A stretch of 43,025 nt of DNA from Acidobacteria bacterium RIFCSPLOWO2_12_FULL_66_21 (GTDB lineage: Bacteria; Acidobacteriota; Vicinamibacteria; Vicinamibacterales; 2-12-FULL-66-21). A program made the position numbers and the translations under genes. The DNA is taken from the NCBI GenBank assembly GCA_001767455.1, contig MELC01000015.1:14771-57795 (forward strand), written 5' to 3'. The notes below the pieces were generated by a model that saw nothing but the letters and a program-made list of their open reading frames with translations, was not told the DNA's origin and searched no databases. Of this stretch, positions 9,755 to 29,548 are shown piece after piece (the stretch's first letter is position 1; each line of letters starts with the position of its first letter).

Positions 9755-9785
9755 TTGACCTTTACGTAACGTCAGGCTTTACCAT
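9755..9785 (+). promoter_or_regulatory. MerR-type promoter with 19-bp spacer and operator
   Basis: -35 TTGACC (9755-9760) and -10 TACCAT (9780-9785) are separated by 19 bp, the long spacer typical of MerR-family promoters. Inside it is an imperfect palindrome, gacctt-tacgt-aacgtc (9757-9773), with one mismatch. This matches how MerR proteins bind between -35 and -10 and untwist the spacer, so the downstream regulator probably controls itself. The GTG at 9792 lies 6 nt after the -10. Confidence 0.7.
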
Positions 9786-9791
9786 CTCCCT

Positions 9792-10538
9792 GTGAGCAAG
9801 AAACAGGGAGAGATGCTACGGGTCGGCGAATTGGCAAAGCGCACCGGATTGTCCATCCGGACGCTGCACCATTACGACGCCATCGGCCTGCTGCGCCCGT
9901 CGCACCGCAGCAGCAGCGGCTACCGCCTGTACTCGATCGACGACGTGATGCGCCTGCAGCAGATCGTGCTGCTGCGCGAGATCGGGTTGTCGCTCGAGGA
10001 CATCCGGCGCAGCCTCTCCCGCGACGGCCAATCCCTGCTCCAGACCATCGAATTTCACGCCGGCCGCACCCGCGAGCGCATCGAGCGCGAGCGCAGGCTG
10101 TGCCGGAGGCTCGAAGAGACCGCCGAGCTGCTGCGCCGCCGCTCGCGCGTCACCATCGACACCATCGTCGAGACCATCGAGGAGCTGACCATGTTCGACA
10201 AGTACTTCACGGAAGATCAGCGCGGCTGGCTGAAGGAGCGGCGCGTCGTCGTCGGCGAGGAGCGCATCAAGGAAGTGGAGGCCGAGTGGCCGCGGCTCAT
10301 CGCGGAGGTCCGGCAGGAGATGGCACAGGCCACGCCGCCGGACCACCCGCGCGTCCAGGCGCTCGCGGCGCGGTGGCGCGGCCTGGTCGAAGAGTTCACC
10401 AACGGCAACCTCGCCGTCGCGAAAGGCGTGGCGACGATGTACAAGAACGAGCCGTCGGTCCGCCAGCGCACGGGCCTGGACTCGGAGATCATGGAGTACA
10501 TCAGCCGGGCCGGGGCGTTCAAGGACACCAGTCGGTAG
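9792..10538 (+). CDS. MerR-family regulator with TipAS ligand domain
   Basis: A 248-residue transcription regulator. The N-terminal winged helix (VGELAKRTGLSIRTLHHYDAIGLLRP, then SGYRLYSIDDVMRLQQI) is a classical MerR DNA-binding domain. A dimerisation coiled coil spans about residues 80-120. The C-terminal half (MFDKYFTEDQRGWLKERR ... PSVRQRTGLDSEIMEYISRA) resembles the TipAS antibiotic-recognition domain of TipA/SkgA/Mta-type regulators, which bind drugs and activate resistance genes. Two starts are possible: GTG 9792, which coincides with the predicted transcription start (leaderless), and ATG 9813, which has AGGGAG only 2 nt away. I prefer 9792 because the same spacing recurs at other genes here. 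The last three codons lie in the following repeat. Confidence 0.85.
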   Translation: MSKKQGEMLRVGELAKRTGLSIRTLHHYDAIGLLRPSHRSSSGYRLYSIDDVMRLQQIVLLREIGLSLEDIRRSLSRDGQSLLQTIEFHAGRTRERIERERRLCRRLEETAELLRRRSRVTIDTIVETIEELTMFDKYFTEDQRGWLKERRVVVGEERIKEVEAEWPRLIAEVRQEMAQATPPDHPRVQALAARWRGLVEEFTNGNLAVAKGVATMYKNEPSVRQRTGLDSEIMEYISRAGAFKDTSR

Positions 10539-10670
10539 TCGATGGTCACAGTCGGTAGTCGAAGTCAAAGTCAAAGTCGGTCGAAGTCACAGTCGGCGAC
10601 TCTGACTGTGACTCCCTTGACTTTGACTCCTTGATTTTGACTATCGACTATCGACTGATCAATCGACTGA
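10529..10670. repeat. Foldback array C of 6/7-bp agtc words
   Basis: The unit cagtcggtagtcga occurs at 10529-10542 and 10549-10562 (20-bp period). Runs of agtcaa, agtcgg and gtcaca follow, and then the complementary words gactgtgac, gactttgac and gactatc. The two arms meet near 10595 (GTCACAGTC against GACTGTGAC), so the whole block can form a long imperfect hairpin. It begins within the last codons of the MerR gene. Confidence 0.75.
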
Positions 10671-10672
10671 TC

Positions 10673-10678
10673 TAATAT
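10673..10678 (+). promoter_or_regulatory. -10-like TAATAT before membrane-protein gene
   Basis: TAATAT ends 6 nt before the ATG at 10685, with no room for a Shine-Dalgarno. This suggests a leaderless transcript. It is embedded in ctgat-ctaat-atcag (10667-10681). Confidence 0.4.
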
Positions 10679-10684
10679 CAGTCC

Positions 10685-11143
10685 ATGTACACAGCCGCCC
10701 TCTTCGCGCACTCCTGGGTCCGTTGGGCGGTGGTGATTGCGGGCGTCGTGGTGTTCCTGCGGGCGGCGACCGGCGCGTCCGCACGCAGGCCTTGGACGCG
10801 GTCCGACGACCGGGCGAGCCTGTGGTTCACCATCGCGCTTGACGTGCAGGTCCTCCTCGGCCTGCTGCTCTACGTGGAGACTGGCCTTCCGCAGAGGCTG
10901 GCGGCGGACGCCGCGCTCGTCATGCAGAGCCCGTCGGCCCGTTTCTGGACCGTCGAGCACCCGCTGGGAATGCTCGTCGGCCTGGCGCTGGCGCATGTCG
11001 GCCGCGTGATGGTGCGCAAGGCCGATGTCTCGCGCCGCCACAAGCTCGCCGCGATCTTCTTCGGCATCGCCCTGATTGCCATCCTGGCCTCGCTCCCCTG
11101 GCCCGGCATGCCGAACGGGCGTCCGTGGCTACGGTGGCGATGA
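10685..11143 (+). CDS. Small four-helix membrane protein (cytochrome-b-like annotation)
   Basis: A 152-residue integral membrane protein with four predicted TM helices (about 8-25, 45-65, 88-106, 120-140). Conserved-looking His residues sit at the membrane edges: H9 in AHSWVRW, a His in FWTVEHPLGM, one in ALAHVGR and one in RRHKLA. Proteins of this pattern (HSxLRW start, FxxEH, RxHK, SLPWP end) occur in Bacteroidota and Acidobacteriota and are often labelled cytochrome b. Whether they bind haem is not established, so the function stays open. It follows the drug-sensing MerR gene in the same direction and might belong to its regulon, but the foldback array between them argues for separate transcription. 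Confidence 0.75.
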   Translation: MYTAALFAHSWVRWAVVIAGVVVFLRAATGASARRPWTRSDDRASLWFTIALDVQVLLGLLLYVETGLPQRLAADAALVMQSPSARFWTVEHPLGMLVGLALAHVGRVMVRKADVSRRHKLAAIFFGIALIAILASLPWPGMPNGRPWLRWR

Positions 11144-11144
11144 G

Positions 11145-11243
11145 CCGCCTTCGCGCTTCGCGCTTCCGCCTTCGCGAACCGCTTCGGCGGACACGTCGGC
11201 GCCCAAGCCGAACCACGAGCTGCGAGCTGCGAGCTGCGACACA
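11145..11243. repeat. Intergenic repeat D: dispersed 16-mer plus cgagctg heptamers
   Basis: ccgccttcgcgcttcg (11145-11160) recurs in reverse complement at 26993-27008. It is followed by a hairpin-forming stretch (ccgcc...ggcgg). Three in-phase cgagctg heptamers lie at 11216-11236, ending in cgacaca. The same heptamer closes array A at 120-133. Confidence 0.7.
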
Positions 11244-11262
11244 TTCTTCCGATGAGGTTGTT

Positions 11263-13308
11263 ATGAAATCCCGTCGCCTGTGTCTTCTCTCTCTGATCGC
11301 GATCGTCGTGCTGGCCGGCCAGCCGGCCGGGCGCGCCGCCGCCGGCCGCGCGATGACCATCGACGATCTGCTCGGCGCCATCCGGATCGGCGATCCGCAG
11401 CTGTCGGCGGACGGCAAGACCGTCGCGTTCTCGCGGACGACGACCGATGTGAAGAGCGGTAAGCGGAACGCGGACATCTGGGCGGTTGCCGCGGACGGTT
11501 CCGGTTCGCCGAAAGAGCTGATTGGCGGCGACAAGAGCGAGAGCACGCCGCGCTACTCGCCTGACGGCAGGCGGCTGGCGTTCATCTCGTCGCGCGACGG
11601 CGCTCCGCAGGTCTACGTGGCGGATGCGGACGGTTCGAACGCGAAGAAGATCACCAACCTGCCGATGGGTGTGGAGCCGCCGCTCGTGTTCTCCCCCGAT
11701 GGAAACCGGCTTGCCTTCGTGTCCGACGTCTACCCGGAATGCACGGACGAGGCGTGCAACAAGCAGAAGAGTGAAGAGGCGGAGAAGAACCCCGTGAAGA
11801 TGCGCCGGCTGACGCGGCTGCTGTTCCGGCACTGGGACAGCTGGCGCGAGAACGTGCGGCATCACGTCTTCGTCGCTGACATCGCGGGCGGGCGCGCGCT
11901 CGATCTGACGCCGGGCGACTACGACTCACCTCCCGTCCAGCAGGAGGACGGCTCGATCGCCTTCTCGCCCGACGGCCGCGACATCGCGTTCGTCTCGAGC
12001 CGCGAGGGGCCCGATCGGGAAGCGTGGACGACGAACCACGACGTGTGGACGGTCTCCATCACGGGCGGAGAGGCGAAGAAGGTCACGGCCAATCCGGCGT
12101 CGGACCTCTCACCCATGTTCTCGCGCGACGGCCGCACGATCTTCGTGCGCGCGCAGCGCCGCGCCGGCTTCGAGGCCGACCGCTGGTATCTGGATGCCTA
12201 CGACGTCGCCTCGGGCGCGAAACGGACGGTGTTCCAGACGCCGGACATCTCGGTCGGCGATTACACGCTCTCGCAGGATGGCGCGACGATCTGGTTCACG
12301 GCGGGTGACCACGCCCGCGAGAACGTGTTCGTGGTGCCTGCCGGCGGCGGTACGGCGAAGCGGGTGCTCGAAGGGGGCGCGATTTCGTCGGTCCGTCCCG
12401 GCGCCGGATTTGTCGTCTTCTCGAAATCCAGCCTGACGGCTCCGGCCGAGCTGTTCCGTGCGTCGGCCGACGGCAGCGGCGTCAAGCCGCTCACGCGCGA
12501 GAACGAGCGATGGATCAAGGACGTGCAGTTCGCGCAGCCGGAAAGCCTCACCGTGACGGCGCCGGCCGGCGACAAGATCCAGTACTGGCTGATCAAGCCG
12601 CCGGACTTCGACCCGTCCAGGAAGTATCCCGTGGTGTTCCTGATTCACGGCGGCCCGCAGGGGGCGTGGGAGGACGCGTGGTCGTCGCGGTGGAACCCGT
12701 CGCTCTGGGCGGCACAGGGCTGGGTGGTGGCCGCGCCGAATCCCAGCGGATCGACGGGATTCGGCCAGGCCATGGTCGATCGCATCTCCGGCGACTGGGG
12801 CGGCCGCGTGATGACCGAGATCGACGCGGTCTTCGACGCGGTCGCGAAGATGCCGTTCACCGACTCGCGCCACATGGGCATCGCCGGCGCGAGCTACGGT
12901 GGTTACGCGGTCAACTGGATTCTCGGCCATACCAACAGATTCAAGGTGGCGGTCACGCACGACGGCGTGTTCAACCTCGAATCGATGAGCATGGCCACCG
13001 AGGAGCTCTGGTTCCCCGAGTGGGAGTTCGGCGGACGGCCGTGGGATCCGAAGGCGCGCGCGCAGTTCGCGAAGTGGTCGCCGCACCGCTTCGTCCAGAA
13101 CATCCGGACGCCCACGCTCATCATCACCAACGAGCAGGACTTCCGCGTGCCGGTCGACCAGGGCCTGCAGATGTTCACGGCGCTGCGCAGAAACGGCGTC
13201 GCCGCCGAAGCGCTGGTGTTCCCCGACGAGGGGCACTGGGTACTGAAGGCGCACAACAGCCGCGCCTGGCACGAGGCGGTGTTCGGCTGGATCAAGAAGT
13301 ATCTGTGA
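11263..13308 (+). CDS. Secreted S9 family serine peptidase (prolyl oligopeptidase type)
   Basis: A 681-residue protein with a signal peptide (residues 1-27). An N-terminal seven-bladed WD40/TolB-like propeller has repeated SPDGRxxAF motifs. The C-terminal alpha/beta-hydrolase domain runs from about residue 430. The catalytic Ser is in GASYGGY (about 544), Asp in TNEQDFRVP (about 625) and His in PDEGHWVL (about 656). The HGGPQGAWED oxyanion-region motif is present. S9C-type acylaminoacyl peptidases and dipeptidyl peptidases have this layout and cut short peptides in the periplasm or outside. The ATG at 11263 is supported by GAGG 5 nt upstream and the signal peptide right after it. The enzyme looks complete. 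Confidence 0.92.
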   Translation: MKSRRLCLLSLIAIVVLAGQPAGRAAAGRAMTIDDLLGAIRIGDPQLSADGKTVAFSRTTTDVKSGKRNADIWAVAADGSGSPKELIGGDKSESTPRYSPDGRRLAFISSRDGAPQVYVADADGSNAKKITNLPMGVEPPLVFSPDGNRLAFVSDVYPECTDEACNKQKSEEAEKNPVKMRRLTRLLFRHWDSWRENVRHHVFVADIAGGRALDLTPGDYDSPPVQQEDGSIAFSPDGRDIAFVSSREGPDREAWTTNHDVWTVSITGGEAKKVTANPASDLSPMFSRDGRTIFVRAQRRAGFEADRWYLDAYDVASGAKRTVFQTPDISVGDYTLSQDGATIWFTAGDHARENVFVVPAGGGTAKRVLEGGAISSVRPGAGFVVFSKSSLTAPAELFRASADGSGVKPLTRENERWIKDVQFAQPESLTVTAPAGDKIQYWLIKPPDFDPSRKYPVVFLIHGGPQGAWEDAWSSRWNPSLWAAQGWVVAAPNPSGSTGFGQAMVDRISGDWGGRVMTEIDAVFDAVAKMPFTDSRHMGIAGASYGGYAVNWILGHTNRFKVAVTHDGVFNLESMSMATEELWFPEWEFGGRPWDPKARAQFAKWSPHRFVQNIRTPTLIITNEQDFRVPVDQGLQMFTALRRNGVAAEALVFPDEGHWVLKAHNSRAWHEAVFGWIKKYL

Positions 13309-13313
13309 GAGGT

Positions 13314-13396
13314 CAGCTCCCAGTTTCCGGCTGCCAGCTCCCAGCCGTGTCCAGCTGGAAGCTGGAAGCTGGTCACTGGAAACTGGAAACTGGCCG
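13314..13396. repeat. Heptamer foldback E between convergent genes
   Basis: The left arm holds in-phase 7-bp words (cagctcc, cagtttc, cggctgc, cagctcc, cagccgt; 13314-13348). The right arm holds ctggaag, ctggaag, ctggtca, ctggaaa, ctggaaa, ctggccg (13355-13396). The arms are complementary (cagtttcc against ggaaactg). The element sits between the ends of two convergent genes and could act as a bidirectional transcription barrier. Confidence 0.85.
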
Positions 13397-13404
13397 CTCA
13401 CGTT

Positions 13405-14235
13405 TCACTTCCTCGAGATATGCACGCCGCCATTGGACGTGCGCACGCGAAGCGACGGTCCGCCGCTGCCGATATCCGCTGTCGCTCTCTGCGGCCGTCG
13501 CCCCTCGGTGGTGGTGACCGGGAAATCGCTGTGCAGGCCGCCATTGTTCGTGGCCGCTTCGATGTGCGCGTTGTATGCGGCCGGAATCGACATGCGCACC
13601 CCGCCGTTCGTGGTTTCCACGTCGAGGCCGGATCCGTCCCACGTCGTGCCGTCGAGCTCGACGTCGATCCCGCCATTGGACGTCTTGCCGCTGACCTCTC
13701 CGCCCACCCGGACGAGCTTCACCCCGCCGTTCACGGTCTTGAACTCGACGCGGCTCTTGATGGCTTCGACGGAGATGCCGCCGTTGGTCGAGCTGAGCGA
13801 GAGGGGAGTCGCGCCCGGCGCGGCGATCTCGAAGCTGACCGACCAGCCTTCTCTATCTGGAAGATCGCGGGGACCGTCGGCCGACACGCGATCGGCTGTC
13901 GCGATCACCTGCACGCGCGAGACCAGGGCGCGCGCCTCCTCGATCGTTCGGGCGTTCGCCGATACCCGGGCGCGGACAAGGATGTCGCGCCGGGCGGAGC
14001 CGCTGACCTTGATGCCGCCGTTCGGCGCGGCGTCGACGGTGAGGGTCGCCGCGGTCGCGGGAACGGTGTACTCCCGCACTTCGCAGGCCCGCGCACGATC
14101 GCTGTCGCCGCGCGTTTCCTGGCACCACGGATCGTTGGCCGAGACCTGCTGGGCGTGCAGAGCCGCGGGCACCGCGCCGGCGGCGACAAGAGCCAGAACA
14201 GGAAGGAGCTGGTTGAATCGGGTGTGGTTCGTCAT
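13405..14235 (-). CDS. Exported DUF4097-like beta-repeat protein
   Basis: A 276-residue protein with a signal peptide (residues 1-28, ending ALHAQQ). The C-terminal two thirds is a ladder of short strands with recurring NGG turns (APNGGIKVSG, STNGGISVE, TVNGGVKLV, TSNGGIDVE, TTNGGVRMS, NNGGLHSDF, TSNGGVHIS). This is the look of DUF4097/DUF4098 putative-adhesin beta-solenoids. The role of the family is not established. It lies downstream of the CocE-type hydrolase on the same strand with a 32-bp gap containing an 18-bp perfect palindrome, so it may be cotranscribed or separately started. A weak GTCCAA (14242-14247) lies 6 nt before its ATG. Confidence 0.8.
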   Translation of the reverse strand: MTNHTRFNQLLPVLALVAAGAVPAALHAQQVSANDPWCQETRGDSDRARACEVREYTVPATAATLTVDAAPNGGIKVSGSARRDILVRARVSANARTIEEARALVSRVQVIATADRVSADGPRDLPDREGWSVSFEIAAPGATPLSLSSTNGGISVEAIKSRVEFKTVNGGVKLVRVGGEVSGKTSNGGIDVELDGTTWDGSGLDVETTNGGVRMSIPAAYNAHIEAATNNGGLHSDFPVTTTEGRRPQRATADIGSGGPSLRVRTSNGGVHISRK

Positions 14236-14250
14236 GCCACGTTGGACGGC

Positions 14251-14268
14251 AACGCGGCGCGCCGCGTT
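14251..14268. promoter_or_regulatory. 18-bp perfect palindrome
   Basis: aacgcggcgcgccgcgtt (14251-14268) is a perfect palindrome touching the stop codon of the CocE hydrolase and 16 bp before the DUF4097 start. It could be a hairpin (no T-tract) or a dimeric protein-binding site. Confidence 0.45.
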
Positions 14269-16151: not shown

Positions 16152-16262
16152 CAGGCCTCCGATGTAACAATCCGCAGGTTTCTGTGTTCGTCTGGTATGT
16201 GAGCGTCCCGTGTGCTTCCGCGGCCGGACTTTAGCCTGTTCGGAGGCTGGCTGTCGAGAGGC

Positions 16263-16290
16263 GAACCCGCAACCATCGGCTGCCGTCTAA
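16263..16290 (+). promoter_or_regulatory. ECF-sigma-like promoter of ADOP permease
   Basis: GAACC (16263-16267), a 17-nt spacer and GTCTAA (16285-16290) resemble extracytoplasmic-function sigma promoters (GAAC at -35, GTC/TCTAA at -10). The ATG at 16297 follows 6 nt after the -10, so the transcript would be leaderless. The same pair of boxes occurs before the permease at 27080. The rest of 16152-16262 holds the Shine-Dalgarno of the divergent hydrolase and nothing else recognised. Confidence 0.55.
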
Positions 16291-16296
16291 GTCCCC

Positions 16297-18711
16297 ATGC
16301 TGCTTCAGGATATCCGCTACGCCCTTCGCACCCTGCTGAAGAACCGCGGCTTTACGGCCGTGGCCGTCATCTGCCTCTCCCTCGGCATAGGCGTCAACGC
16401 GACGATCTTCAGCGTCGTGGACGGCGTCATCCTGAATCCGTACCCCTACCCCGACTCCGAGCGCCTGATCGTCATCACGTCGACGAACCAGACGCAGGGT
16501 TTCATGCGCGCCGGCCTTTCCTACGCCGATTTCAAGGACCTGCGCGGCACGGCGACCACCATCAGCACCGGCGCCGCGTTTACCAGCCGCAGCCTGACGA
16601 TCTCCGACGGCACGGGCGATCCGGAACGCTTTCTGGGTGAGACGGTCTCCTGGCAGCTGTTCAGCATCCTCGGGGCCGCGCCCGCCCTCGGGCGCGATTT
16701 CGGGCCCGAGGACGATCGTCCGGGCGCGGCGCCTGTGATCATCCTCAGCGACGACGTCTGGCGCTCTCGGTACCACTCGGATCCGAACATCGTCGATCGC
16801 GCGATTTCCATCAACGGCCGGCCCCACACCATCATCGGCGTCATGCCGCCCCGCTTCGCGTTTCCGGAGAGCCACCGGCTGTGGGTACCGCTTGCGCCGT
16901 ACGGGGAGCCGACGACGCGCGACGAGCGCAACGCCTATGTCTTCGCGCGGATGAAACCGGGCGTCACGCTGGAGCAGGCGCGGAGCGAGCTGAAGACGAT
17001 CGCGTCGCAACTGGAGCGCACGTACCCCGCGGAGAACAAGGATTGGGGACTGGGCGCCCGGCCGGTGCGCGAATGGATGCTGCCCCAGGCCGTGAAGCTG
17101 ATCCTCCTGACGATGATGGGCGCGGTGACGCTGGTGCTCCTGATCGCCTGCGCGAACGTCGCGAACCTGCTGCTGGCGCGCGCGTCGGTGCGCGCGCGCG
17201 AGATCGCGATCCGCTCGGCGCTCGGCGCGGGACGGTGGCGGATTGTCCGGCAGCTGCTCACCGAGTCGGTCTTCATCGGCCTGTTCGCCGCACCGCTCGG
17301 GGTCCTGCTCGGCTGGGTGGGCATTCGCCTGCTCGACATGGCCATGCCCGCCGACGGCGTGCCGTACTTCATCCGCTGGAGCCTCGACACGCGCGCCCTC
17401 GTCTACACGATTTCCATTTCGGTGCTCACCGGGATCGTCTTCGGGCTCGCGCCGGCGCTCCAGGCCGCGCGCGGCAATCTCCAGGAGACGCTGAAGGAGG
17501 GCGGACGCGGCTATTCGGGCGCCGGGCGCGCCTGGCTGCGCAACACCCTCGTGATCATCGAGGTCGGCCTCTCGCTCGTGCTGCTCGTCGGCGCCTCGCT
17601 GTTCATGCGCAGCTTCCTGAACGTGCAGACCGCGCAGCTCGGCTTCGATACGAAGCCGCTGATGACGGTGCGGTTCTACCTGCCGGGCGTCCAGTACGAG
17701 AAAGCCGAGGCGAAGGCCCTCCGCGTCGAGGACATCGTCCGGCGCGTCGAGGCGCTGCCAGGGGTCCAGGCGGCGTTCGCCTCGAACTTCGTGCCGCTCA
17801 GCGGCGGCGGCGGCGGCGGGCAGGTGATTGTCGAGGGGAAGGCCGCCGAGCCGGGGAAAGAGCCGGCGATCAACTTCGTCGCGACATCGCCGCATCTGCG
17901 GCAGACGTTGGGCGTCGCGCTCGTCCACGGCCGCGATCTCACGGATAGCGAAGGGGCGACCAGGTCCGGCGCCGCGCTGATCAACCAGGCCATGGCGAAA
18001 CGGCTCTGGGGCGATCAGGATCCTATCGGCCGGCGATTCAGGCTGAAGGGCGACCGGATTCCTGACTGGTTTTCGGTCGTTGGAGTCGTGGCCGACTTCA
18101 GGCAGTACCCGGCACGAGGTGACGAGCCTCCGCCGTCGGCGGCGTTCATCCCCTATCCGTACGACCCTGCCTTGAACACGGGGTTGACGATCCGCGTGGC
18201 GGGCGACCCGGCAAGCGTGACGGCCGCCGTCCGCGATCAGATCCGGCAGGCGGACGCGTCGCTGCCCGTGTTCAACGTCAGCACGATGGAGGAACTGCGC
18301 ACGAGCAGCTTCTGGGAGCAGCGGCTGTTCACGATGATGTTCGCCACGTTTGGCGCGATCGCGCTGCTGCTGGCGTCGGTCGGCGTCTACGGCGTGTTGT
18401 CGTACTCCGTGTCGCAGCGCGTCCAGGAGATCGGCGTACGCGTGGCGCTTGGCGCCGAGCGCCGTCACGTCATGCGGCTGATCGTCGGCGATGGCCTGCG
18501 GCTGGCGGCCGGCGGAATCGTCTTCGGCTTGATCGGAGCGTTCTTCGCATGGCGAGCCATTTCATCCGAGTTGTACAACGTGACGCCGACCGATCCGGCG
18601 AGCTTCGCGGCGGTCGCGCTGTTCCTGACGCTCGTCGCGGCTCTGGCCAGCTACTTCCCGGCGCGGCGGGCCATGGCCGTCGATCCGATCGTCGCGCTCA
18701 GAAACGAGTGA
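16297..18711 (+). CDS. ADOP-type ABC transporter permease
   Basis: An 804-residue permease beginning with the diagnostic MLLQDIRYALRTLLKNRGFTAVAVICLSLGIGVNATIFSVV. It has two complete MacB_PCD plus FtsX halves. The first periplasmic core is YADFKDLRGTATTIS and the first FtsX triplet LLIACANVANLLLARASVRAREIAIRSALGAGR. TM1 of the second half is TLVIIEVGLSLVLLVGASLFMRS. The last FtsX triplet (GVYGVLSYSVSQRVQEIGVRVALGA) ends in ARRAMAVDPIVALRNE. Length and order are those of the family. Related MacB systems export macrolides, peptides or lipoproteins, but these orphan permeases lack an ATPase gene nearby and their substrate is unknown. No Shine-Dalgarno is seen; the ECF-like promoter puts the transcription start at or near the ATG. 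Confidence 0.92.
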   Translation: MLLQDIRYALRTLLKNRGFTAVAVICLSLGIGVNATIFSVVDGVILNPYPYPDSERLIVITSTNQTQGFMRAGLSYADFKDLRGTATTISTGAAFTSRSLTISDGTGDPERFLGETVSWQLFSILGAAPALGRDFGPEDDRPGAAPVIILSDDVWRSRYHSDPNIVDRAISINGRPHTIIGVMPPRFAFPESHRLWVPLAPYGEPTTRDERNAYVFARMKPGVTLEQARSELKTIASQLERTYPAENKDWGLGARPVREWMLPQAVKLILLTMMGAVTLVLLIACANVANLLLARASVRAREIAIRSALGAGRWRIVRQLLTESVFIGLFAAPLGVLLGWVGIRLLDMAMPADGVPYFIRWSLDTRALVYTISISVLTGIVFGLAPALQAARGNLQETLKEGGRGYSGAGRAWLRNTLVIIEVGLSLVLLVGASLFMRSFLNVQTAQLGFDTKPLMTVRFYLPGVQYEKAEAKALRVEDIVRRVEALPGVQAAFASNFVPLSGGGGGGQVIVEGKAAEPGKEPAINFVATSPHLRQTLGVALVHGRDLTDSEGATRSGAALINQAMAKRLWGDQDPIGRRFRLKGDRIPDWFSVVGVVADFRQYPARGDEPPPSAAFIPYPYDPALNTGLTIRVAGDPASVTAAVRDQIRQADASLPVFNVSTMEELRTSSFWEQRLFTMMFATFGAIALLLASVGVYGVLSYSVSQRVQEIGVRVALGAERRHVMRLIVGDGLRLAAGGIVFGLIGAFFAWRAISSELYNVTPTDPASFAAVALFLTLVAALASYFPARRAMAVDPIVALRNE

Positions 18712-18717
18712 GCCTGC

Positions 18718-18723
18718 TATCAT
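18718..18723 (+). promoter_or_regulatory. Extended -10 (TGcTATCAT) before metallopeptidase gene
   Basis: TATCAT matches TATAAT in 5 of 6 bases, with TG one base upstream (extended -10). It ends 6 nt before the GTG at 18730. No Shine-Dalgarno is present, so a leaderless transcript is possible. Confidence 0.45.
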
Positions 18724-18729
18724 CCGAGC

Positions 18730-19452: not shown

Positions 19453-19456
19453 GACG

Positions 19457-19999: not shown

Positions 20000-20015
20000 C
20001 GGGCTGTTCGAATTC

Positions 20016-20108
20016 CAAACGCCAAACGCCAAACGCCAAACACCGAATGCCGAACATCAAACGCCAAACGGGATTGCTTTGAAGTTTGAAGTTTGAAGTT
20101 TGGAGTTA
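20016..20108. repeat. Heptamer array F (caaacgc, then gaagttt)
   Basis: Eight in-phase words (caaacgc x3, caaacac, cgaatgc, cgaacat, caaacgc, caaacgg; 20016-20071) are followed after 9 nt by gaagttt x3 and ggagtta (20081-20108). The caaac and gtttg cores are complementary, so the arms can pair loosely. The array ends about 10 bp before the -10-like box of the acylase gene. Confidence 0.9.
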
Positions 20109-20118
20109 GAGGTCCGGT

Positions 20119-20124
20119 TACACT
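20119..20124 (+). promoter_or_regulatory. -10-like TACACT before acylase gene
   Basis: TACACT ends 7 nt before the ATG at 20132. No Shine-Dalgarno is visible in the short gap. This is consistent with a leaderless start. Confidence 0.35.
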
Positions 20125-20131
20125 ATGGCGC

Positions 20132-22309: not shown

Positions 22310-22323
22310 TGTTTGATTGCTGT

Positions 22324-22440
22324 CGTTGCTCGTGGCTCGTTGTTCGTCCTTCCCGCCGAGCCACGAGTCACGAGCCACGAGCCACGGCAAACGAGCCACG
22401 AGCCACGGCAAACGAGCCACGAGCCACGAGCCACGGCAAG
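22324..22440. repeat. Heptamer foldback G (cgagcca)
   Basis: Twelve in-phase words fill 22357-22440. Nine are cgagcca or cgagtca and three cggcaaa/g, making a 21-bp higher order (two cgagcca plus one cggcaaa). The left arm 22324-22351 has the opposite words cgttgct, cgtggct, cgttgtt, cgtcctt, so cgtggctcg pairs with cgagccacg across a 5-bp centre. The array ends 1 bp before the TATAGT box of the next gene. Confidence 0.92.
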
Positions 22441-22441
22441 G

Positions 22442-22447
22442 TATAGT
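22442..22447 (+). promoter_or_regulatory. -10 box TATAGT before GNAT-like gene
   Basis: TATAGT (5 of 6 to consensus) ends 6 nt before the GTG at 22454. The position of a -35 is filled by the heptamer array. No Shine-Dalgarno is seen, so a leaderless start is likely. Confidence 0.5.
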
Positions 22448-22453
22448 TAACCC

Positions 22454-23044: not shown

Positions 23045-23046
23045 CA

Positions 23047-23174
23047 GGCAGCTGGCAGCGGGCAACGTAGCAGGCAGCTGGCAGCAGGCGGCTGGCAGTG
23101 GATCGCGCCGTCCCGCTGACAGCTTGACAACTCGACTCACTGCCTGCTGCCGGCTGCCGGCTGCCTGCTTCTTG
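23047..23174. repeat. Heptamer foldback H (ggcagct ... ctgcctg)
   Basis: In-phase words ggcagct, ggcagcg, ggcaacg, then after 5 nt ggcagct, ggcagca, ggcggct, ggcagtg (23047-23100). The complementary arm is ctgcctg, ctgccgg, ctgccgg, ctgcctg (23140-23167). It lies between convergent genes. The centre holds ggatcgcgccgtc and ctcgactca, which are shared with element I at 25373-25505. Confidence 0.88.
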
Positions 23175-23175
23175 A

Positions 23176-25335
23176 TCAGCGAAGCCCCTTCACCATCCCT
23201 GTGGCGCGGTCGACCTCGCCGGCGAGCTTCGTGATGGCCGCGGCGACGATGGGCACGAACGAGCGCGCTTCGTCCCACTGCTTCTGCTCGATCCCTTCGC
23301 GAATACCCGGCAGCGTCTTGACCCCGTAGCCGGTGTAGAACCCCGGCGCGTACGCGAGGTGTTTGAACCACTCGCGCTTCGGGAGGCCCGCCTCGTGTCT
23401 GAATGCGCGCTCCGTGGAGTAGAGCACGCGGTTCAGCTCCGCAAGCGCGGCGCGCGGGGCCGAATCGGCCCTGGTCGCGGCTGACGCGGCCTTGTCATAG
23501 GCGTCGGCCGCCGACGACAGCCTCGCGATCGCGGATCGCAGCGGCGCAAGATCCAGCTTGCCCTTGACATCGGGCATCGTCTCGATTTCGTCCGCATAGG
23601 TCTTCAGCGTCGCCGCCGTGCCGCGGAAGTCGAACGGCAGGATCTCGGCATCGGCGAGCCGCATCAACGCGGTGCCGACGGTCTTCGACAGCGCCGCGCC
23701 GTGGGTGAAGCCACCGTCAGAGAAATGCATGTACCAGTAGAACGAATCGTAGATGGAATGGTAGATGCCGCCTCCGCCGTCGCCGCCGAAGCCGAGATCG
23801 AGCGACGCGACGTTCACGTGATCGATGAACGCCGTGTAGTCGGAGCCCGAGCCCAGCGCCTCGATCGGCAGATCCGTCTTTGCGCGAAGGTCCGACTTGT
23901 CCTTGTCCGTCTTTGCCTGCTCGACGAGACGTGCGCGTTTCGCCTCGAGCACGCTCTTGCCGCTCCCTCTCGGATCGGGCACGTCGCGCGCGACGTCGTT
24001 GATGAACTCCTGGAGCGAATGCGATCCGCTCATGCCCAGCCAGCCCTTGCCGGTGCTGTCGGTGTTGATGTACACCGCGGCCTTCTGCGAGAGCTCGTCC
24101 TTGTGCTTTTCGACCCACTCGGTCGATCCAAGCAGCCCCCACTCTTCACCGTCCCAGGAGGCGAGAATGATCGTCCGCTTCGGTTTCCAGCCGCTCTTCA
24201 GCAGCTCGGCGAACCCGCGAGCGGTCTCCATCAATGCCACGTTGCCGCTCGTCGGATCAGACGCGCCGTTGACCCACGCGTCGTGATGATTGCCCTGGAT
24301 GATCCACTGGTCGGGGAACACCGAGCCGTCGATGCGGACGATGACGTCATAGAGCGGCCGGTTCTGCCACTCGAAGGCGAGCTTCATGTGGACCTTCGAT
24401 GGTCCCGGCCCGATGTGATACGTCACCGGCAGCGCGCCGCGCCACGATTCCGGCGCCACCGGTCCCTTGAGGTTGCGCAGCAACGGCAGCGCGTCGCCGT
24501 ACGAGATCGGCAGGACCGGGATCTTCAGGATCGTCTTCGCGTCGGCGCGATCGAGCTTTCGGCCTCCCTTCTCCGAGCCCCACCCGGGTGTCAGCGGATC
24601 GCCCGGATTGATCGGCATGTCCATCACGCTCCCGCGCTGCACGCCCTGCTCGGGGCGCCATGCCCCTTCCGGGTACACGTCGCCCGGGTAGAACCCGTCG
24701 TCTTTCGGATCGGAGTAGATGATGCAGCCGACCGCGCCGTGTTCCCACGCAACCTTCGGCTTGATGCCGCGCCAGCTCCGTCCGTATCGCGCGAGGACGA
24801 TCTTCCCCTTCACGTCGACGCCTGTTTTCGCCAGCTCCTCGTAGTCCTCGGGGGTGCCGTAGTTGACGTAGACAATGTCCGCCGTGACGTCGCCGTCCGC
24901 CGAGTACGCGTTGAACGTCGGAAGCTGGCCCGCATCGGTCGAGTCCTTGTCGGCATCCACCTGCGGCTCTTTCAGCGTCGCGGTGTATTTCTCCGGCGCG
25001 ACGAGCTCGACGGTGCGCTCGGTGGGCACCGGCATGAGCGCCTCGAACTCTTCGATCGAGGCGTTCAGACCCCAGGACTTGAACTTCGCGAGAATGTATT
25101 CGGCAACCTTCCGGCTGCCGGGACTTCCGGCGTGATGCGGTTCGGCGCTGATCTCGCGCATGTAATCGCGGAGATTCTCCAGCCTGGGCATCGCCTGGAA
25201 GCGTGCTTCGAAATCCCGCTCCGCGGTCACGCTCCCCGTGGCGAAACCGCGGATGCCCGCAGGCGACTGCGATTGTGCGACCGGAGAAACGAGGAGTGAC
25301 AGGAAAAAACAGAAGAAGACTCTGAAGAGGCGCAT
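23176..25335 (-). CDS. Secreted M28 family zinc peptidase (glutamate carboxypeptidase II-like)
   Basis: A 719-residue protein with a signal peptide (MRLFRVFFCFFLSLLVSPVAQSQS). The domain order is that of GCPII/transferrin-receptor-like M28 peptidases: N-terminal start of the peptidase domain (PHHAGSPGSRKVAEYI), a protease-associated domain (VDVKGKIVLARYGRSWRGIKPKVAWEHGAVGCIIYSDP), and the metal site. The metal site has His and Asp in GNHHDAWVNGASDPTSG, Glu pair in DGEEWGLLGSTEW, and His in GGGGIYHSIYDSFYWYMHF. A helical dimerisation domain of TFR type is at the C-terminus. Such enzymes remove C-terminal Glu or other residues from peptides. TATAGT 6 nt before the ATG (minus strand) supports this start. 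Confidence 0.92.
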   Translation of the reverse strand: MRLFRVFFCFFLSLLVSPVAQSQSPAGIRGFATGSVTAERDFEARFQAMPRLENLRDYMREISAEPHHAGSPGSRKVAEYILAKFKSWGLNASIEEFEALMPVPTERTVELVAPEKYTATLKEPQVDADKDSTDAGQLPTFNAYSADGDVTADIVYVNYGTPEDYEELAKTGVDVKGKIVLARYGRSWRGIKPKVAWEHGAVGCIIYSDPKDDGFYPGDVYPEGAWRPEQGVQRGSVMDMPINPGDPLTPGWGSEKGGRKLDRADAKTILKIPVLPISYGDALPLLRNLKGPVAPESWRGALPVTYHIGPGPSKVHMKLAFEWQNRPLYDVIVRIDGSVFPDQWIIQGNHHDAWVNGASDPTSGNVALMETARGFAELLKSGWKPKRTIILASWDGEEWGLLGSTEWVEKHKDELSQKAAVYINTDSTGKGWLGMSGSHSLQEFINDVARDVPDPRGSGKSVLEAKRARLVEQAKTDKDKSDLRAKTDLPIEALGSGSDYTAFIDHVNVASLDLGFGGDGGGGIYHSIYDSFYWYMHFSDGGFTHGAALSKTVGTALMRLADAEILPFDFRGTAATLKTYADEIETMPDVKGKLDLAPLRSAIARLSSAADAYDKAASAATRADSAPRAALAELNRVLYSTERAFRHEAGLPKREWFKHLAYAPGFYTGYGVKTLPGIREGIEQKQWDEARSFVPIVAAAITKLAGEVDRATGMVKGLR

Positions 25336-25341
25336 CCGAAC

Positions 25342-25347
25342 ACTATA
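25342..25347 (-). promoter_or_regulatory. -10 box TATAGT for M28 peptidase gene
   Basis: On the minus strand TATAGT is followed by 6 nt and the ATG at 25335. This is the same hexamer and spacing as at 22442. There is no Shine-Dalgarno in the gap. Confidence 0.5.
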
Positions 25348-25372
25348 TCGTAGGGCGGGGAGCTGGCCGCAT

Positions 25373-25505
25373 GCAGCTGGCAGCTGGCAGTGGATCACGC
25401 TGTCAAACTGCGTCTCTTCGGTCGGTTCAGCGGCGGAGGTTGGGAGTTTGGAGTTGTCAGCCTCGACTCACTGCCTACTGCCTACTGCCTGCTGCCTGCT
25501 GCATA
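25373..25505. repeat. Heptamer foldback I (gcagctg ... ctgccta)
   Basis: Left words gcagctg, gcagctg, gcagtgg (25373-25393). Right words ctgccta, ctgccta, ctgcctg, ctgcctg, ctgcata (25471-25505). The inner blocks ggatcacgctgtc and ctcgactca match element H, in the same orientation. The last word merges with the -10-like CATACT of sufE. Confidence 0.88.
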
Positions 25506-25507
25506 CT
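25502..25507 (+). promoter_or_regulatory. -10-like CATACT before sufE
   Basis: CATACT ends 6 nt before the ATG at 25514. TACTAT (25504-25509) is an alternative 4 nt away. No Shine-Dalgarno is present. Confidence 0.35.
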
Positions 25508-25513
25508 ATTCGT

Positions 25514-25957
25514 ATGTCGAACGCCGCGCTTCCGGCGAAGCTGCAGGACCTCATCGAGACGTTCGAGATGTTCCCGGATGCGGCGGACCGCACGAACATG
25601 CTCCTGAGTTACGCGGATCAATTCAGGGAGGTGCCGCCCGAGGTGGCCGAGCGTCCGTTCGACAAGCGCCATCAGGTGCCGCAGTGCGAGTCGGACGCGT
25701 ACGTCTGGGCGATGAAGCGGCCCGACGGGACGCTGCAGCTCCACTTCGCGGTGGAGAATCCATCAGGGGTCTCGGCGAAAGCGCTCGCGGCGATCCTGGA
25801 CCGGACCTTGTCGGGCCTGCCCGCGGAACGAATCGCGCGCGTGGGCCCGGACATCGTCGAGCGCATCTTCCGCCAGAACATCTCCATGGGCAAAGGCATG
25901 GGACTGATGTCCATGGTGCAGGCGGTGCAGGCGCTCGCCAAGGCCGCCACAAAGTAA
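25514..25957 (+). CDS. sufE: SufE family Fe-S cluster assembly protein
   Basis: A 147-residue cytosolic protein that covers the whole SufE fold. It opens with LQDLIETFEMFPDAADRTNMLLSYADQF. The sulfur-accepting Cys58 is in HQVPQCESDAYVWAM, where E. coli-type proteins have V-x-G-C-x-S-x-V-W. The core is LHFAVENPSGVSAKALAAIL, and it ends with IFRQNISMGKGMGLMSMVQAV. SufE takes persulfide sulfur from the cysteine desulfurase SufS and passes it to the SufBCD scaffold. No sufS or sufBCD is nearby. The next gene is a rhodanese-type sulfurtransferase, so the two are linked by persulfide chemistry. Confidence 0.9.
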   Translation: MSNAALPAKLQDLIETFEMFPDAADRTNMLLSYADQFREVPPEVAERPFDKRHQVPQCESDAYVWAMKRPDGTLQLHFAVENPSGVSAKALAAILDRTLSGLPAERIARVGPDIVERIFRQNISMGKGMGLMSMVQAVQALAKAATK

Positions 25958-26004
25958 CTCCCAACTCCCAACTCCCAACTCCGAACTCCCAACTCCGAAC
26001 TTCC
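25956..26004. repeat. Heptamer array J (aactccc)
   Basis: Seven in-phase words aactccc, aactccc, aactccc, aactccg, aactccc, aactccg, aacttcc. The array begins inside the TAA stop codon of sufE. Confidence 0.9.
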
Positions 26005-26057
26005 CGAGCCCCGCGCTACCTCATCCGCGCATGGATCCACCCCGCCGCAATGCACGT

Positions 26058-26063
26058 CATAAT
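26058..26063 (+). promoter_or_regulatory. -10-like CATAAT before sulfurtransferase gene
   Basis: CATAAT (5 of 6) ends 5 nt before the ATG at 26069, with no room for a Shine-Dalgarno. Confidence 0.4.
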
Positions 26064-26068
26064 CTATT

Positions 26069-26935
26069 ATGAGTGACGATATTCAAAGCCGAGGTTATGC
26101 GCATCCCGAGGTCCTGGTCTCCACCGACTGGGTCCAGGAGCACCTGAACGATCCTTCCGTCCGGATCGTTGAATCCAACGAAGACACCCTCCTCTACGCA
26201 TCCGGCCATGTGCCCGGGGCCGTGCACGTGGACTGGACGTCCGACCTGAACGATCAGATCCGCCGCGACTACATCACGCGCGAGGGGTTCGAGCGCCTCA
26301 TGTCGCGCATCGGCGCGACGCGTGACACCACGGTGGTGTTCTATGGCGACAAGAACAACTGGTGGGCGTGCTACGCCTTCTGGGTGTTCCAACTGTTCCG
26401 CCACACCAATGCCCAGGTGATGGACGGAGGCCGGCTGAAATGGGAGAAAGAAAAGCGGCCGATGACGCGCGACGTGCCGTCGTATCCACCGACGCGGTAT
26501 GAGGCACCCGAACGGATCGACGCGAACCACCGCGCCTTTCGCGACGAGGTGCTGGCGCACATGCAGAGCCACGGTCAACTCGTCGACGTGCGCAGCCCCG
26601 AGGAATTCTCAGGCGCCCGCATGCACATGCCGGACTATCCCAACGAAGGGGCGCTCCGCGGCGGTCACATTCCGGGCGCGCGGAGCGTTCCGTGGGCCCG
26701 CGCCGTCAACCCCGAGGACGGAACGTTCAAGCCGGCCGGCGAGCTGAAGAAGATCTACTGCGAGGAGAAACAGCTCGCGGCCTCCGCGCCCACCATCGCC
26801 TATTGCCGCATCGGTGAGCGGAGCAGCCACACGTGGTTCGCGCTGAAGTACCTGCTCGGCTTCGAGCACGTGCGCAACTACGACGGCTCGTGGACCGAGT
26901 GGGGCAACCTCGTCAACGTGCCCATAGAGAAATAA
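26069..26935 (+). CDS. Thiosulfate/3-mercaptopyruvate sulfurtransferase (two rhodanese domains)
   Basis: A 288-residue cytosolic enzyme with two rhodanese modules. The inactive N-terminal module contains [21 protein letters not shown] and the [20 protein letters not shown] stretch. The catalytic C-terminal module contains [27 protein letters not shown], and the active-site loop C246-R-I-G-E-R-S-S after TIAY. The loop of six residues starting with Cys and containing Arg is closer to thiosulfate sulfurtransferases than to the CG[S/T]GVT loop of mercaptopyruvate enzymes. The donor is an inference. The adjacent SufE gene suggests a role in sulfane-sulfur handling. The start ATG is preceded by a -10-like box. 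Confidence 0.9.
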
Positions 26936-26940
26936 CGTCG

Positions 26941-26975
26941 TTGCTCGTTGCTCGTTGCTCGCGGCTCGTGGCTCG
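26941..26975. repeat. Heptamer array K (ttgctcg) and dispersed 16-mer
   Basis: Five in-phase words ttgctcg x3, cggctcg, tggctcg. About 17 bp later, 26993-27008 carries the reverse complement of the 16-mer found at 11145-11160. Confidence 0.85.
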
Positions 26976-27045
26976 CCTGGCCCGCCGCAGCCCGAAGCGC
27001 GAAGGCGGCGCGCGTGCCGGGCCCGCATGAAAGAGCAATCGGACT

Positions 27046-27072
27046 GAACCGCCGGGCCCGCGCGCCGTCTAA
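27046..27072 (+). promoter_or_regulatory. ECF-sigma-like promoter of third ADOP permease
   Basis: GAACC (27046-27050), a 16-nt spacer and GTCTAA (27067-27072). Flanking bases are also shared with the promoter at 16263-16290 (ccGTCTAAG). The GTG start at 27080 follows 7 nt later, so the mRNA would be leaderless. Confidence 0.55.
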
Positions 27073-27079
27073 GCCTGCT

Positions 27080-29548
27080 GTGATACTTCCTTCCAGGCTC
27101 AGGCATATCGCGCGCAGGCTCGGCCGCGCGCCGCTTTTTGCCGCGGTCGCGATTCTGACGCTCGGCGTGGGGATCGGCGCGAACGCGGCGATTTTCAGCG
27201 TCATCAACAGCGTCCTGCTCAGGCCTCTTCCGTTCAACGAGCCGGAGCGCCTCGTGGGGGTGTGGCATTCGGCCCCGGGTCTGCGGATCCCGCTGATGAG
27301 CCAGTCACCGTGCACTTACCTGACCTACCGGGAGGAGGGACGTGCCTTCGAGGACATCGGGCTCTGGGACGGGTCCGCGGTCACCGTCACCGGCGCCGGC
27401 GATCCCGAACGTGTGGACGCGCTGGTCGTGACCGACGGCATCCTGCCCATCCTGCGCGTGCAGCCCACGCTCGGGCGGCGATTCACGGCGCAGGACGACG
27501 CGCCGCAGGCGCCGCTCCGCGTGATGCTGACCGACGGGTACTGGCGGAGCAAGTTCGGCGGCGACGCCAGCGCCGTCGGACGCACCATCACGATCGACGG
27601 CAAGTTCGCGGAGATCATCGGCGTGCTGCCCGGCACGTTCAAGTTCCTCTCGCTGCATCCGCAGCTCGTCATGCCGTTCCAGATCGATCGCGCGAAGGTG
27701 TACGTCGGGAACTTCAGCTACCAGGGGATCGCGCGCCTCAAGCCGGGCGTCACGATCGAACAGGCGAACGCGGACGTGGCCCGGATGATCCCGATGATCC
27801 TGGATCGGTTCCCGCTGCCGCCGGGTTTCAGCCGCAAGATGTTCGTCGAGACGCGGCTCTCGCCAAAGGTCCGTCCGCTCTCGGCCGATGTCATCGGCGA
27901 GGTCGGCCGCGTCCTCTGGGTGCTCTTCGGCACGGTCGCGATCGTGCTCCTCATTGCGTGTGCGAACGTCGCGAACCTGTTTCTCATCCGCGCGGAAGGG
28001 CGGCAGCAGGAGCTTGCCGTCCACGCGGCGCTTGGGGCCGGGCCCGGCCGGGTTGCGTGGGAGATCCTTTCCGAGGCTGTCGTGCTGGCCGTTGCCGGCG
28101 GCGTCGCCGGGCTCGGGCTTGCCTATGCGGGGATTCGCGTGCTCGCCGCCGTTGCTCCCGAGGGGCTGCCCCGCATCGACGAGATCGCCATCACCCCTCT
28201 CGTCGTCGTCTTCACGCTGGGCATCTCGATTCTCGCCGGCGTGTTCTTCGGCATGCTGCCCGTTTTGAAGTTCGCGCGGCCGCGGCTTGCCGCCGCGCTC
28301 AAGGAAGGCGGACGCGGTTCGAGTGACGGCCGCGAGCGCCATCGTGCGCGCAACGTCCTCGTCGTTGCCGAGATTGCGCTCGCCGTGGTGCTGCTCGTCG
28401 GATCCGGGTTGATGCTCCGCACGTTCAGCGCGATGCGCCACGTGGAGCCGGGCTTCACCCATTCCGAAGAGCTGCTGTCGCTGCGCATCTCGATTCCGGA
28501 AGCGGTCGTGAAGGACGTCGAGCAGGCGGCGCGCGCGCACGAGCAGATCGCGCAGCAGATCGCCGCGATTCCTGGCGTGCGGTCGGTCGGCGTCGGCTCG
28601 TCGGTGACCATGGACGGCCTCGACACCAACGACCCCGTGTTCGTCGAGGATTTTCCGGACACCTCCGGGCAGATGCCGCCGATCCGGCGGTACCGATTCG
28701 TCGGCGCCAGCTACGTCGAGACGATGGGGAACCGCGTCGTGGCGGGCCGCACCATCACGTGGGCGGACGTCCACGAGACCGCCGCGGTGGTGATGGTCAG
28801 CGAGAACTTCGCGCGCGAGTACTGGAAGGATCCGGCGGCGGCGGTCGGCCGGCGCATCCGCAACCGGCCGAACGGCGCCTGGCGGACGATCGTCGGCGTC
28901 GTCGGCGACGAACGGGACAACGGTGTGGCGAAGGCGGCCCCCGCCATCCTCTACTGGCCGATGGTCGTCAGGAACTTCTGGGACGACGCGATCTCCACGC
29001 GGCGGACGATGGCGTACGCGATCCGGAGCGAGCGGATGAAGTCGCCCCCATTCCTGAAAGAGATCCAGCAGGCCGTGTGGTCCATCAACCCGAACGTGCC
29101 GATCGCCAGCGTGCGCACGATGGACGAGATCAAGGCGCAATCGATGGCGCAGACGTCATTCGCGCTCGTGATGCTGGCGATGGCGGCCGGCGTCGCGCTC
29201 CTGCTCGGGGTCGTCGGGATCTACGGCGTCATCGCGTATGTCGCCGTGCAGCGGACGCGGGAGATCGGGATCCGGATGGCTCTTGGCGCGGATCGCGGCA
29301 GCGTCAGCCTGCTGTTCGTGCGGCAGGGACTCGTGCTCGTGGTGTGCGGTATCGCGATCGGGTTGATCGCGTCCGGCCTCGCGACGAGTGTCATGGGCAC
29401 GCTCCTCTTCGGCGTGACCGCGACGGATCCGGTCACGTACGCCGCAGTGGCGGGAGGACTGGGTGCCGTCGCGCTGCTCGCGAGCTACCTGCCGGCGCGC
29501 CGGGCCGCACGCGTCGATCCGGCGGCGGCGCTGCGCTGGGGGATGTAA
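27080..29548 (+). CDS. ADOP-type ABC transporter permease
   Basis: A permease of about 822 residues starting at GTG 27080 (VILPSRLRHIARRLGRAPLFAAVAILTLGVGIGANAAIFSVINSVLL). It is a full two-half ADOP protein. MacB_PCD half 1 has TYLTYREEGRAFEDIGLWDG. The FtsX triplet 1 is VLLIACANVANLFLIRAEGRQQELAVHAALGAGP. The second N-terminal TM is NVLVVAEIALAVVLLVGSGLMLRTF, followed by a second periplasmic core. The final FtsX triplet is GVIAYVAVQRTREIGIRMALGAD, with tail ARRAARVDPAAALRWGM. No ATPase partner is nearby and the substrate is unknown. An in-frame upstream TTG (26948) lies in repeat sequence and upstream of the promoter, so it was rejected as start. Confidence 0.92.
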   Translation: MILPSRLRHIARRLGRAPLFAAVAILTLGVGIGANAAIFSVINSVLLRPLPFNEPERLVGVWHSAPGLRIPLMSQSPCTYLTYREEGRAFEDIGLWDGSAVTVTGAGDPERVDALVVTDGILPILRVQPTLGRRFTAQDDAPQAPLRVMLTDGYWRSKFGGDASAVGRTITIDGKFAEIIGVLPGTFKFLSLHPQLVMPFQIDRAKVYVGNFSYQGIARLKPGVTIEQANADVARMIPMILDRFPLPPGFSRKMFVETRLSPKVRPLSADVIGEVGRVLWVLFGTVAIVLLIACANVANLFLIRAEGRQQELAVHAALGAGPGRVAWEILSEAVVLAVAGGVAGLGLAYAGIRVLAAVAPEGLPRIDEIAITPLVVVFTLGISILAGVFFGMLPVLKFARPRLAAALKEGGRGSSDGRERHRARNVLVVAEIALAVVLLVGSGLMLRTFSAMRHVEPGFTHSEELLSLRISIPEAVVKDVEQAARAHEQIAQQIAAIPGVRSVGVGSSVTMDGLDTNDPVFVEDFPDTSGQMPPIRRYRFVGASYVETMGNRVVAGRTITWADVHETAAVVMVSENFAREYWKDPAAAVGRRIRNRPNGAWRTIVGVVGDERDNGVAKAAPAILYWPMVVRNFWDDAISTRRTMAYAIRSERMKSPPFLKEIQQAVWSINPNVPIASVRTMDEIKAQSMAQTSFALVMLAMAAGVALLLGVVGIYGVIAYVAVQRTREIGIRMALGADRGSVSLLFVRQGLVLVVCGIAIGLIASGLATSVMGTLLFGVTATDPVTYAAVAGGLGAVALLASYLPARRAARVDPAAALRWGM

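Follow-up and report, generated by a model that had tools for sequence, protein, structure and literature searches.

Probable leaderless genes beside Shine-Dalgarno-led genes in an acidobacterial genome, with two kinds of promoter box close to the start codon

How might a gene be translated when the place usually held by a Shine-Dalgarno (SD) site is taken by what looks like a promoter? The question is raised by a stretch of 43,025 nucleotides (nt) from Acidobacteria bacterium RIFCSPLOWO2_12_FULL_66_21, here called the window (positions 14,771-57,795 of contig MELC01000015.1, in a genome of 6.475 Mb and 91 contigs), in which -10-like hexamers recur just before start codons. The answer we favor, with a probability of about 0.83, is that transcription of such genes would start at the start codon or no more than one or two nucleotides away from it, yielding a leaderless mRNA that is translated without an SD site; most of the promoters would be of the sigma-70 type and a small set, including those of the genes at 16297 and 27080, of the extracytoplasmic function (ECF)/sigma-E type. 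The presence of leaderless starts beside SD starts in this genome is well supported by the positional evidence given below, and in this soil bacterium about one gene in eleven seems to have a promoter so close to its start codon that the mRNA probably begins there.

A preliminary description of the window had named ten hexamers lying 5-7 nt 5' of a start codon with no SD site, and all ten were verified. It had set them beside five comparison genes (179, 4079, 9041, 16151 on the minus strand, and 29783) that do have SD sites, with SD posteriors of 0.71-0.95. The ten sites and their genes follow; the posteriors given are those for a sigma-70-type -10 box under a two-motif model described below.

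9780..9785, plus strand: TACCAT, sigma-70-type -10 box, 6 nt before GTG 9792 (posterior 0.92)
9792-10538, plus strand: gene for a MerR/TipAS-like regulator (Pfam MerR_1, TipAS)
10673..10678, plus strand: TAATAT, -10 box, 6 nt before ATG 10685 of a 152-amino-acid protein without a Pfam match (posterior 0.96)
16263..16290, plus strand: GAAC-N17-CGTCTAA, ECF/sigma-E-type promoter, 6 nt before ATG 16297 (posterior 0.07)
16297-18711, plus strand: permease gene (Pfam MacB_PCD and FtsX)
18718..18723, plus strand: TATCAT with TGC in front (extended -10), 6 nt before GTG 18730 of a YgjP-like metallopeptidase (posterior 0.98)
20119..20124, plus strand: TACACT, -10 box, 7 nt before ATG 20132 of a penicillin amidase family protein (posterior 0.90)
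22442..22447, plus strand: TATAGT, -10 box, 6 nt before GTG 22454 of a 196-amino-acid protein without a Pfam match (posterior 0.96)
25342..25347, minus strand: TATAGT, -10 box, 6 nt before ATG 25335 of an M28 peptidase (posterior 0.96)
25502..25507, plus strand: CATACT, -10 box, 6 nt before ATG 25514 of a SufE-like protein (posterior 0.78)
26058..26063, plus strand: CATAAT, -10 box, 5 nt before ATG 26069 of a rhodanese-type sulfurtransferase (posterior 0.30)
27046..27072, plus strand: GAAC-N16-CGTCTAA, ECF/sigma-E-type promoter, 7 nt before GTG 27080 (posterior 0.24)
27080-29548, plus strand: permease gene (Pfam MacB_PCD and FtsX)

Much depends on where the genes really start. For the gene-based tests, 1.901 Mb of DNA including the window (about 29% of the genome) was scanned with a gene caller written for the task, which weighs hexamer coding statistics and start-codon type and ignores upstream motifs, a design that keeps its starts unbiased towards -10 boxes; 1369 genes were called. 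The caller agreed with nine of the ten start codons, the exception being 20132, where it took 20174; we favor 20132 because of a lipoprotein-type signal peptide in our reading of the translation and the -10 posterior of 0.90. For the comparison genes it agreed on 4079, 9041 and 16151 minus and took 29906 instead of 29783, while gene 179, whose frame extends to the window edge, is absent from its list. The caller is simple and some of its starts are wrong, an error that would dilute any peak of boxes before starts.

The enrichment check proposed in the preliminary description, run on these 1369 genes, gave a positive answer. The first T of TANNNT falls at -12 in 57 called starts and at -13 in 31, over a background of about 6 per position between -25 and -45. 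Internal in-frame ATG or GTG codons have none at either position (0 and 0 of 1305), and intergenic ATG or GTG codons other than called starts have 57 and 54 among 15530. Even within 45 nt of called starts the signal belongs to the called codon: TANNNT stands at -12/-13 before 88 of 1319 called ATG/GTG codons, while for the other in-frame ATG/GTG codons the count is 24 of 1330 and for those out of frame 15 of 1416. These four sets of control starts rule out base composition as the source of TANNNT before starts. When the boxes are aligned, T and G are enriched at the extended -10 (TGn) places: of the 127 boxes at -12 to -15, 26 have TG one base to their 5' side, compared with 12 of the 124 at -26 to -45.

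A mixture model seeded with TATAAT and AGGAGG converged on two motifs, T-A-(T)-A-A-T with its peak at -12 and an SD. It assigned 219 genes to the -10-led group. Twenty dinucleotide shuffles, to which this model was applied as well, gave 97 +/- 9, so that about 122 genes, or 8.9% of the 1369, are in excess; SD-led genes number 545, against 415 in the shuffles. The two groups differ in where their genes lie. The -10-led share is 104/404 for divergent genes, 50/361 for genes at least 100 nt behind a same-strand neighbor, 28/192 at 25-99 nt, 33/376 at less than 25 nt and 4/36 at contig edges, and the SD-led share runs the opposite way, from 135/404 among divergent genes to 210/376 close behind a neighbor. 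Among the 866 operon-head genes the two signals avoid each other (odds ratio 0.20, p=8e-6), with an SD word in 6 of 95 genes that have TANNNT at -12 to -15 and in 196 of the other 771. Avoidance of SD words, operon-head bias and a sharp position are the marks to be expected of promoters abutting start codons. Most leaderless genes would carry a housekeeping sigma-70-type promoter (-10 TANNNT, often TGn-extended, with a weak -35) whose +1 is the first base of the ATG or GTG, and the mRNA, having no leader, would be translated without an SD site.

The same features bear on the idea that AT-rich words before starts reflect low mRNA structure or intergenic composition and are not promoters at all. 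Starts in high-GC genomes are generally AT-enriched, which lends that idea some ground; sharp position, TGn extension, SD avoidance and operon-head bias, and the lack of such a peak at the 15530 intergenic non-start codons, all speak against it, and we regard it as having almost no probability left. Hardly more probable is the suggestion that a loose hexamer was matched by chance at the ten sites. The hexamers do vary widely, and the 97 of 219 model positives expected by chance mean that any single gene may be such a match; on the other side, the posteriors are 0.78-0.98 at seven of the ten, and counterparts of both GTCTAA sites are conserved in relatives.

Those two sites are also where the earlier view of ten sites as one class gave way. 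The sigma-70-type -10 box fits seven sites and, weakly, 26069, a weakness under the model that follows from its 5-nt gap; it does not fit 16297 or 27080. Reading GTCTAA there as a loose sigma-70 box was ruled out by the posteriors and by conservation of two boxes, since GAAC-N16/17-CGTCTAA recurs before many permease relatives. In the own-genome DNA examined, GAAC precedes GTCTAA seven times at gaps of 17-19 and four times over the 16 other gaps tried. Across 40 genomes, this one included, GAAC-N{16,18}-CGTCTAA occurs 127 times, distributed as 14, 100 and 13 over gaps of 16, 17 and 18, and the same pair at gaps of 19, 20 and 21 occurs 8, 4 and 9 times; a gap of 20 shares its codon phase with 17, so reading frame does not explain the 17-nt peak. 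From a GAAC -35 and a CGTC -10 held at a rigid gap near 17 nt we infer an ECF/sigma-E-type promoter and a sigma factor to match. Sigma70_r4_2 matches above the cut-off number 51 in this genome; in 4 of the 30 loci examined (L248, L261, L264, L266) a motif-like site precedes the sigma gene, which makes these four the first candidates for the matching sigma factor. A variant, GAACAAGC.GTAGA...CTACGTCTAA, has an inverted repeat within the gap and was seen in 7 of the 40 genomes, again including this one, at L032 (C27:10239-10266, minus strand), L182, G004, G006, G007, G008 and G010; the L182 copy precedes a PadR gene.

How far the second promoter type follows the permeases was assessed with the layout NAAC-N16..18-CGT(C/A)(T/A) no more than 40 nt from the start, in 60 relative loci reduced to 52 by removing two duplicates and six without a clear start. 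The permeases at 16297 and 27080 we take to be acidobacterial duplicated orphan permeases (ADOP). The layout precedes 26 of the 52 genes, or 24 of 50 once the window's own pair is set aside; among genes with at least 55% identity the figures are 16 of 21 and 14 of 19. In 17 of the 26 the box lies 6-8 nt from the start codon. The misses at that identity are L107, L112, L113, L212 and L214, of which L113 has the strict motif just beyond the 40-nt limit; another locus counted as a miss, L133, and the hit L217 are seemingly one gene for which different starts were taken. Relatives of 16297 with a like layout are L209, L210, L211, L213 and L215-L221, not L212 or L214, while among those of 27080, CGTCTAA is present in L108, L110 and L111, CGTAAT in L109 and L115, and neither in L107 or L112. 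The same layout test over the 1369 genes of the own genome returned 17, six of them permease-like in our reading.

Other genes lie behind the two-box motif as well. One match was followed in each of 30 genomes, and 25 have an open frame within 200 nt downstream that is not always convincingly a gene; ten of the 25 frames, put to Pfam, gave ABC_tran, HlyD, OEP, DUF4097 (twice), PadR, TetR_N, DUF5916, POTRA and one without a match. From their content these genes look like an envelope and efflux regulon. The ECF set would comprise many MacB/FtsX-type permeases with the promoter as close to the start codon as the sigma-70-type boxes are, and, at other distances, envelope or efflux genes, the permeases being the leaderless messages of an envelope-stress regulon. 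Put more fully, an envelope-stress sigma factor may drive leaderless MacB/FtsX-type permease messages from GAAC-N17-CGT(C/A)(T/A)A, 6-8 nt from the start, in several families of the order, and with a longer leader that promoter may also serve efflux parts (ABC ATPase, HlyD, outer-membrane efflux protein), DUF4097, PadR and TetR genes, a proposal for which we consider the odds to be even. If it is true, the leaderless form would let ribosomes that favor leaderless mRNA under stress translate the permeases. A literature search for an ECF-type promoter before these permeases at a leaderless distance found no report. The proposal gives a large family of obscure function a regulatory hypothesis that can be tested, and the permease promoter could show directly whether a stress regulon is in part leaderless. 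As a separate observation, an ECF-type box stands before TetR-like genes in L178, L186, L194 and L195 (the Pfam match was checked for L186), where by eye a shared word, TGAAC(G/A)(G/C)TGTT, lies 3' of the box and is possibly a TetR operator.

Counts that need no gene calls extend the sigma-70 signal to the phylum. In the whole genome TAYAMT-N6-ATG occurs 58 times (reversed-pattern control, 10) and the same box with 11 nt occurs 12 times (control, 12), a difference between the two gaps at p=1e-8. Of 119 genomes of the phylum, 41 have the 6-nt gap in excess of the 11-nt gap at p<0.01; by raw count 90 have more at 6 nt, 26 fewer, and 3 tie. In the 64 low-background genomes (at most 15 at 11 nt) the totals are 1205 at 6 nt versus 428 at 11 nt, and in the other 55 they are 3230 versus 3069. 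Leaderless-type starts, as read from this count, are widespread in the phylum yet not universal, with marked lineage differences. So simple a count of boxes and gaps tells which lineages show leaderless-type starts and which do not, and there is a practical side to it: gene callers that expect an SD site can misplace starts in such genomes.

The weakest of the sigma-70-type boxes was compared across relatives of its rhodanese gene. Thirty loci were collected and 28 were readable, the window's own and 27 relatives, with leaders read by eye. The CATAAT of 26069 is kept in L139, L140, L142 and L152, all about 80% identical, at 14-28 nt from the start; no CATAAT was seen within 60 nt of the start in the other 23 relatives read. 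The four have a leader with an SD-like word after CATAAT where the window has five nt, and the promoter seems to have persisted in these lineages through the loss or gain of a leader. The neighboring SufE-like gene lies 4-200 nt behind the rhodanese gene on the same strand in 9 of 11 relatives, not in G007 or G008. Relative to those nine the order in the window is swapped: SufE-like 25514 precedes the rhodanese gene and has its own -10 box.

A further explanation accepts the promoters as real and places either the transcription start a few nt upstream or the true start codon further downstream, so that the genes would have short SD-less leaders. The distance from box to start does have a tail, with counts of 18, 21, 11, 10, 10, 12 and 18 for a first T of TANNNT at -14 to -20, and the relatives' ECF-type boxes are found as far as 12 nt from the start, with three cases at 17-28 nt. 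Against short leaders stand the peak at one distance, with a gap of 6 nt in the sigma-70 type and of 6-7 nt in the ECF type, the choice of the same codon by a motif-blind caller at nine of ten sites, and the far lower frequency of TANNNT before other in-frame and out-of-frame starts. We consider short leaders unlikely, with leaderless messages remaining the preferred reading.

Leaderless messages from two promoter types must nevertheless be weighed against a number of results that tell the other way. For the sigma-70 type, aligned boxes have little signal at -35; 97 of the 219 model positives are the number that chance supplies; TANNNT stands at -12/-13 in 12 of the 376 genes close behind a neighbor, where 0.9 would be expected and simple operon logic needs none; the phylum count is undecided in 73 of the 119 genomes and reversed in 5; and the box of 26069 is kept by only 4 of 27 relatives. 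For the ECF type, 26 of the 52 permease genes lack the layout, and the layout motif was worded after inspection of the relatives' upstream regions, the relatives themselves not being independent, for which reasons rates are given and no p-value. The 127 matches of the pair are hardly above the 120 of the reversed pattern, which rules out sheer number as a mark of the class; the argument for it therefore draws on fixed gap and position, and on these only. Across the phylum a strict leaderless form of the ECF pattern is found in 17 of 297 genomes, and its reversed control has 15 matches. It is in excess only inside the taxonomic class (7 of 32 genomes, 1 control match); outside it, 10 of 265 genomes with 14 control matches give no excess. 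Eleven of the 17 strict-pattern loci have an open frame of at least 100 amino acids at that ATG, two being permeases, one of them the window's own, and six have no such frame.

What the DNA displays directly is two box types, with their positions, enrichment and conservation, and it is from these that we infer the transcription starts, the leaderless translation, the sigma factors and the link to stress. The preliminary view that leaderless genes coexist with SD-led ones stands as to coexistence, which passes the sequence tests of peak, controls, SD avoidance and operon position, and not as to a single class.

Seven-base tandem repeat arrays with many different units (CGAGCCA, ACTGCCT, TTTGAAG, GCAGTTG, AACTCCC and others) occupy intergenic gaps of the window, often just 5' of promoters, at the following positions.

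3-136: seven-base repeat array
10530-10566: seven-base repeat array
10639-10656: seven-base repeat array
13355-13393: seven-base repeat array
20015-20107: seven-base repeat array
22323-22435: seven-base repeat array
25470-25507: seven-base repeat array
25956-26001: seven-base repeat array
26938-26975: seven-base repeat array
29557-29731: seven-base repeat array

Of the exact period-7 runs in the 1.90 Mb examined, 91 lie in non-coding DNA and 17 in coding DNA, and non-coding runs of periods 6, 8, 9 and 10 number 4, 23, 6 and 15. Intergenic heptamer repeats have reportedly been seen in Beggiatoaceae (PMC4679880). An array with a 10-base unit (GGGTGCTGAG, about 18 copies, 80% match) at 30306-30482 overlaps the end of a DinB-like gene at 30364. 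An Rfam search of the window gave no match at gathering scores, and a 16S rRNA gene was not found in the genome. A scan of named genomes returned 24 pattern candidates and five distant permease relatives, which were not used further.

Comparison with known systems helps to separate what is familiar here from what is newer. The preliminary description held that leaderless starts were little discussed for Acidobacteriota, a statement that needs correcting in the light of Table 2 of Zheng et al. 2011 (PMC3160421), where TA-led (leaderless) genes are already predicted in three of three Acidobacteria genomes at a mean of 13.3% (9.7-19.4). The sigma-70-type genes described here share with the TA-led genes given there for Actinobacteria, Deinococcus-Thermus and Acidobacteria a TANNNT about 12 nt before the start and SD-led genes beside them, and the 8.9% excess seen here is comparable in size to the Acidobacteria figure; the sample differs, three Acidobacteria genomes there and here one genome plus counts in 119 of the phylum. 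The signal model of that study starts from the Pribnow box and would therefore leave ECF-type boxes out of the count. With leaderless starts in the phylum already predicted, the conserved stress-sigma leaderless permease promoter is the newer lead. A search of the literature for Acidobacteri*, transcription start sites and differential RNA sequencing (dRNA-seq) together found none.

The leaderless transcriptome of Mycobacterium tuberculosis, a precedent from experiment, put at 22% of expressed genes by 5'-end mapping (Cortes et al. 2013, PMC3898074), has in common with the genome studied here a TANNNT -10, no marked -35, the TGNTANNNT extension and both ATG and GTG starts; its starts were mapped by 5' ends, whereas the roughly 9% given here is read from sequence. 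For the ECF type, the GAAC-type -35 resembles that of the E. coli sigma-E promoter (GGAACTT / TCAAA, as quoted in PMC2893595) and that of M. tuberculosis sigma-H, which works best at a 17-nt gap (PMC6411747), the gap preferred here. The CGTCTAA -10 equals that of Neisseria sigma-E, CGTCTAAH, whose -35 differs and whose mapped start lies six nucleotides on (PMC2893595); by that spacing +1 would be the A of the 16297 ATG or its direct neighbor. Unlike these ECF/sigma-E promoters, the one described here adjoins the start codon of MacB/FtsX permeases.

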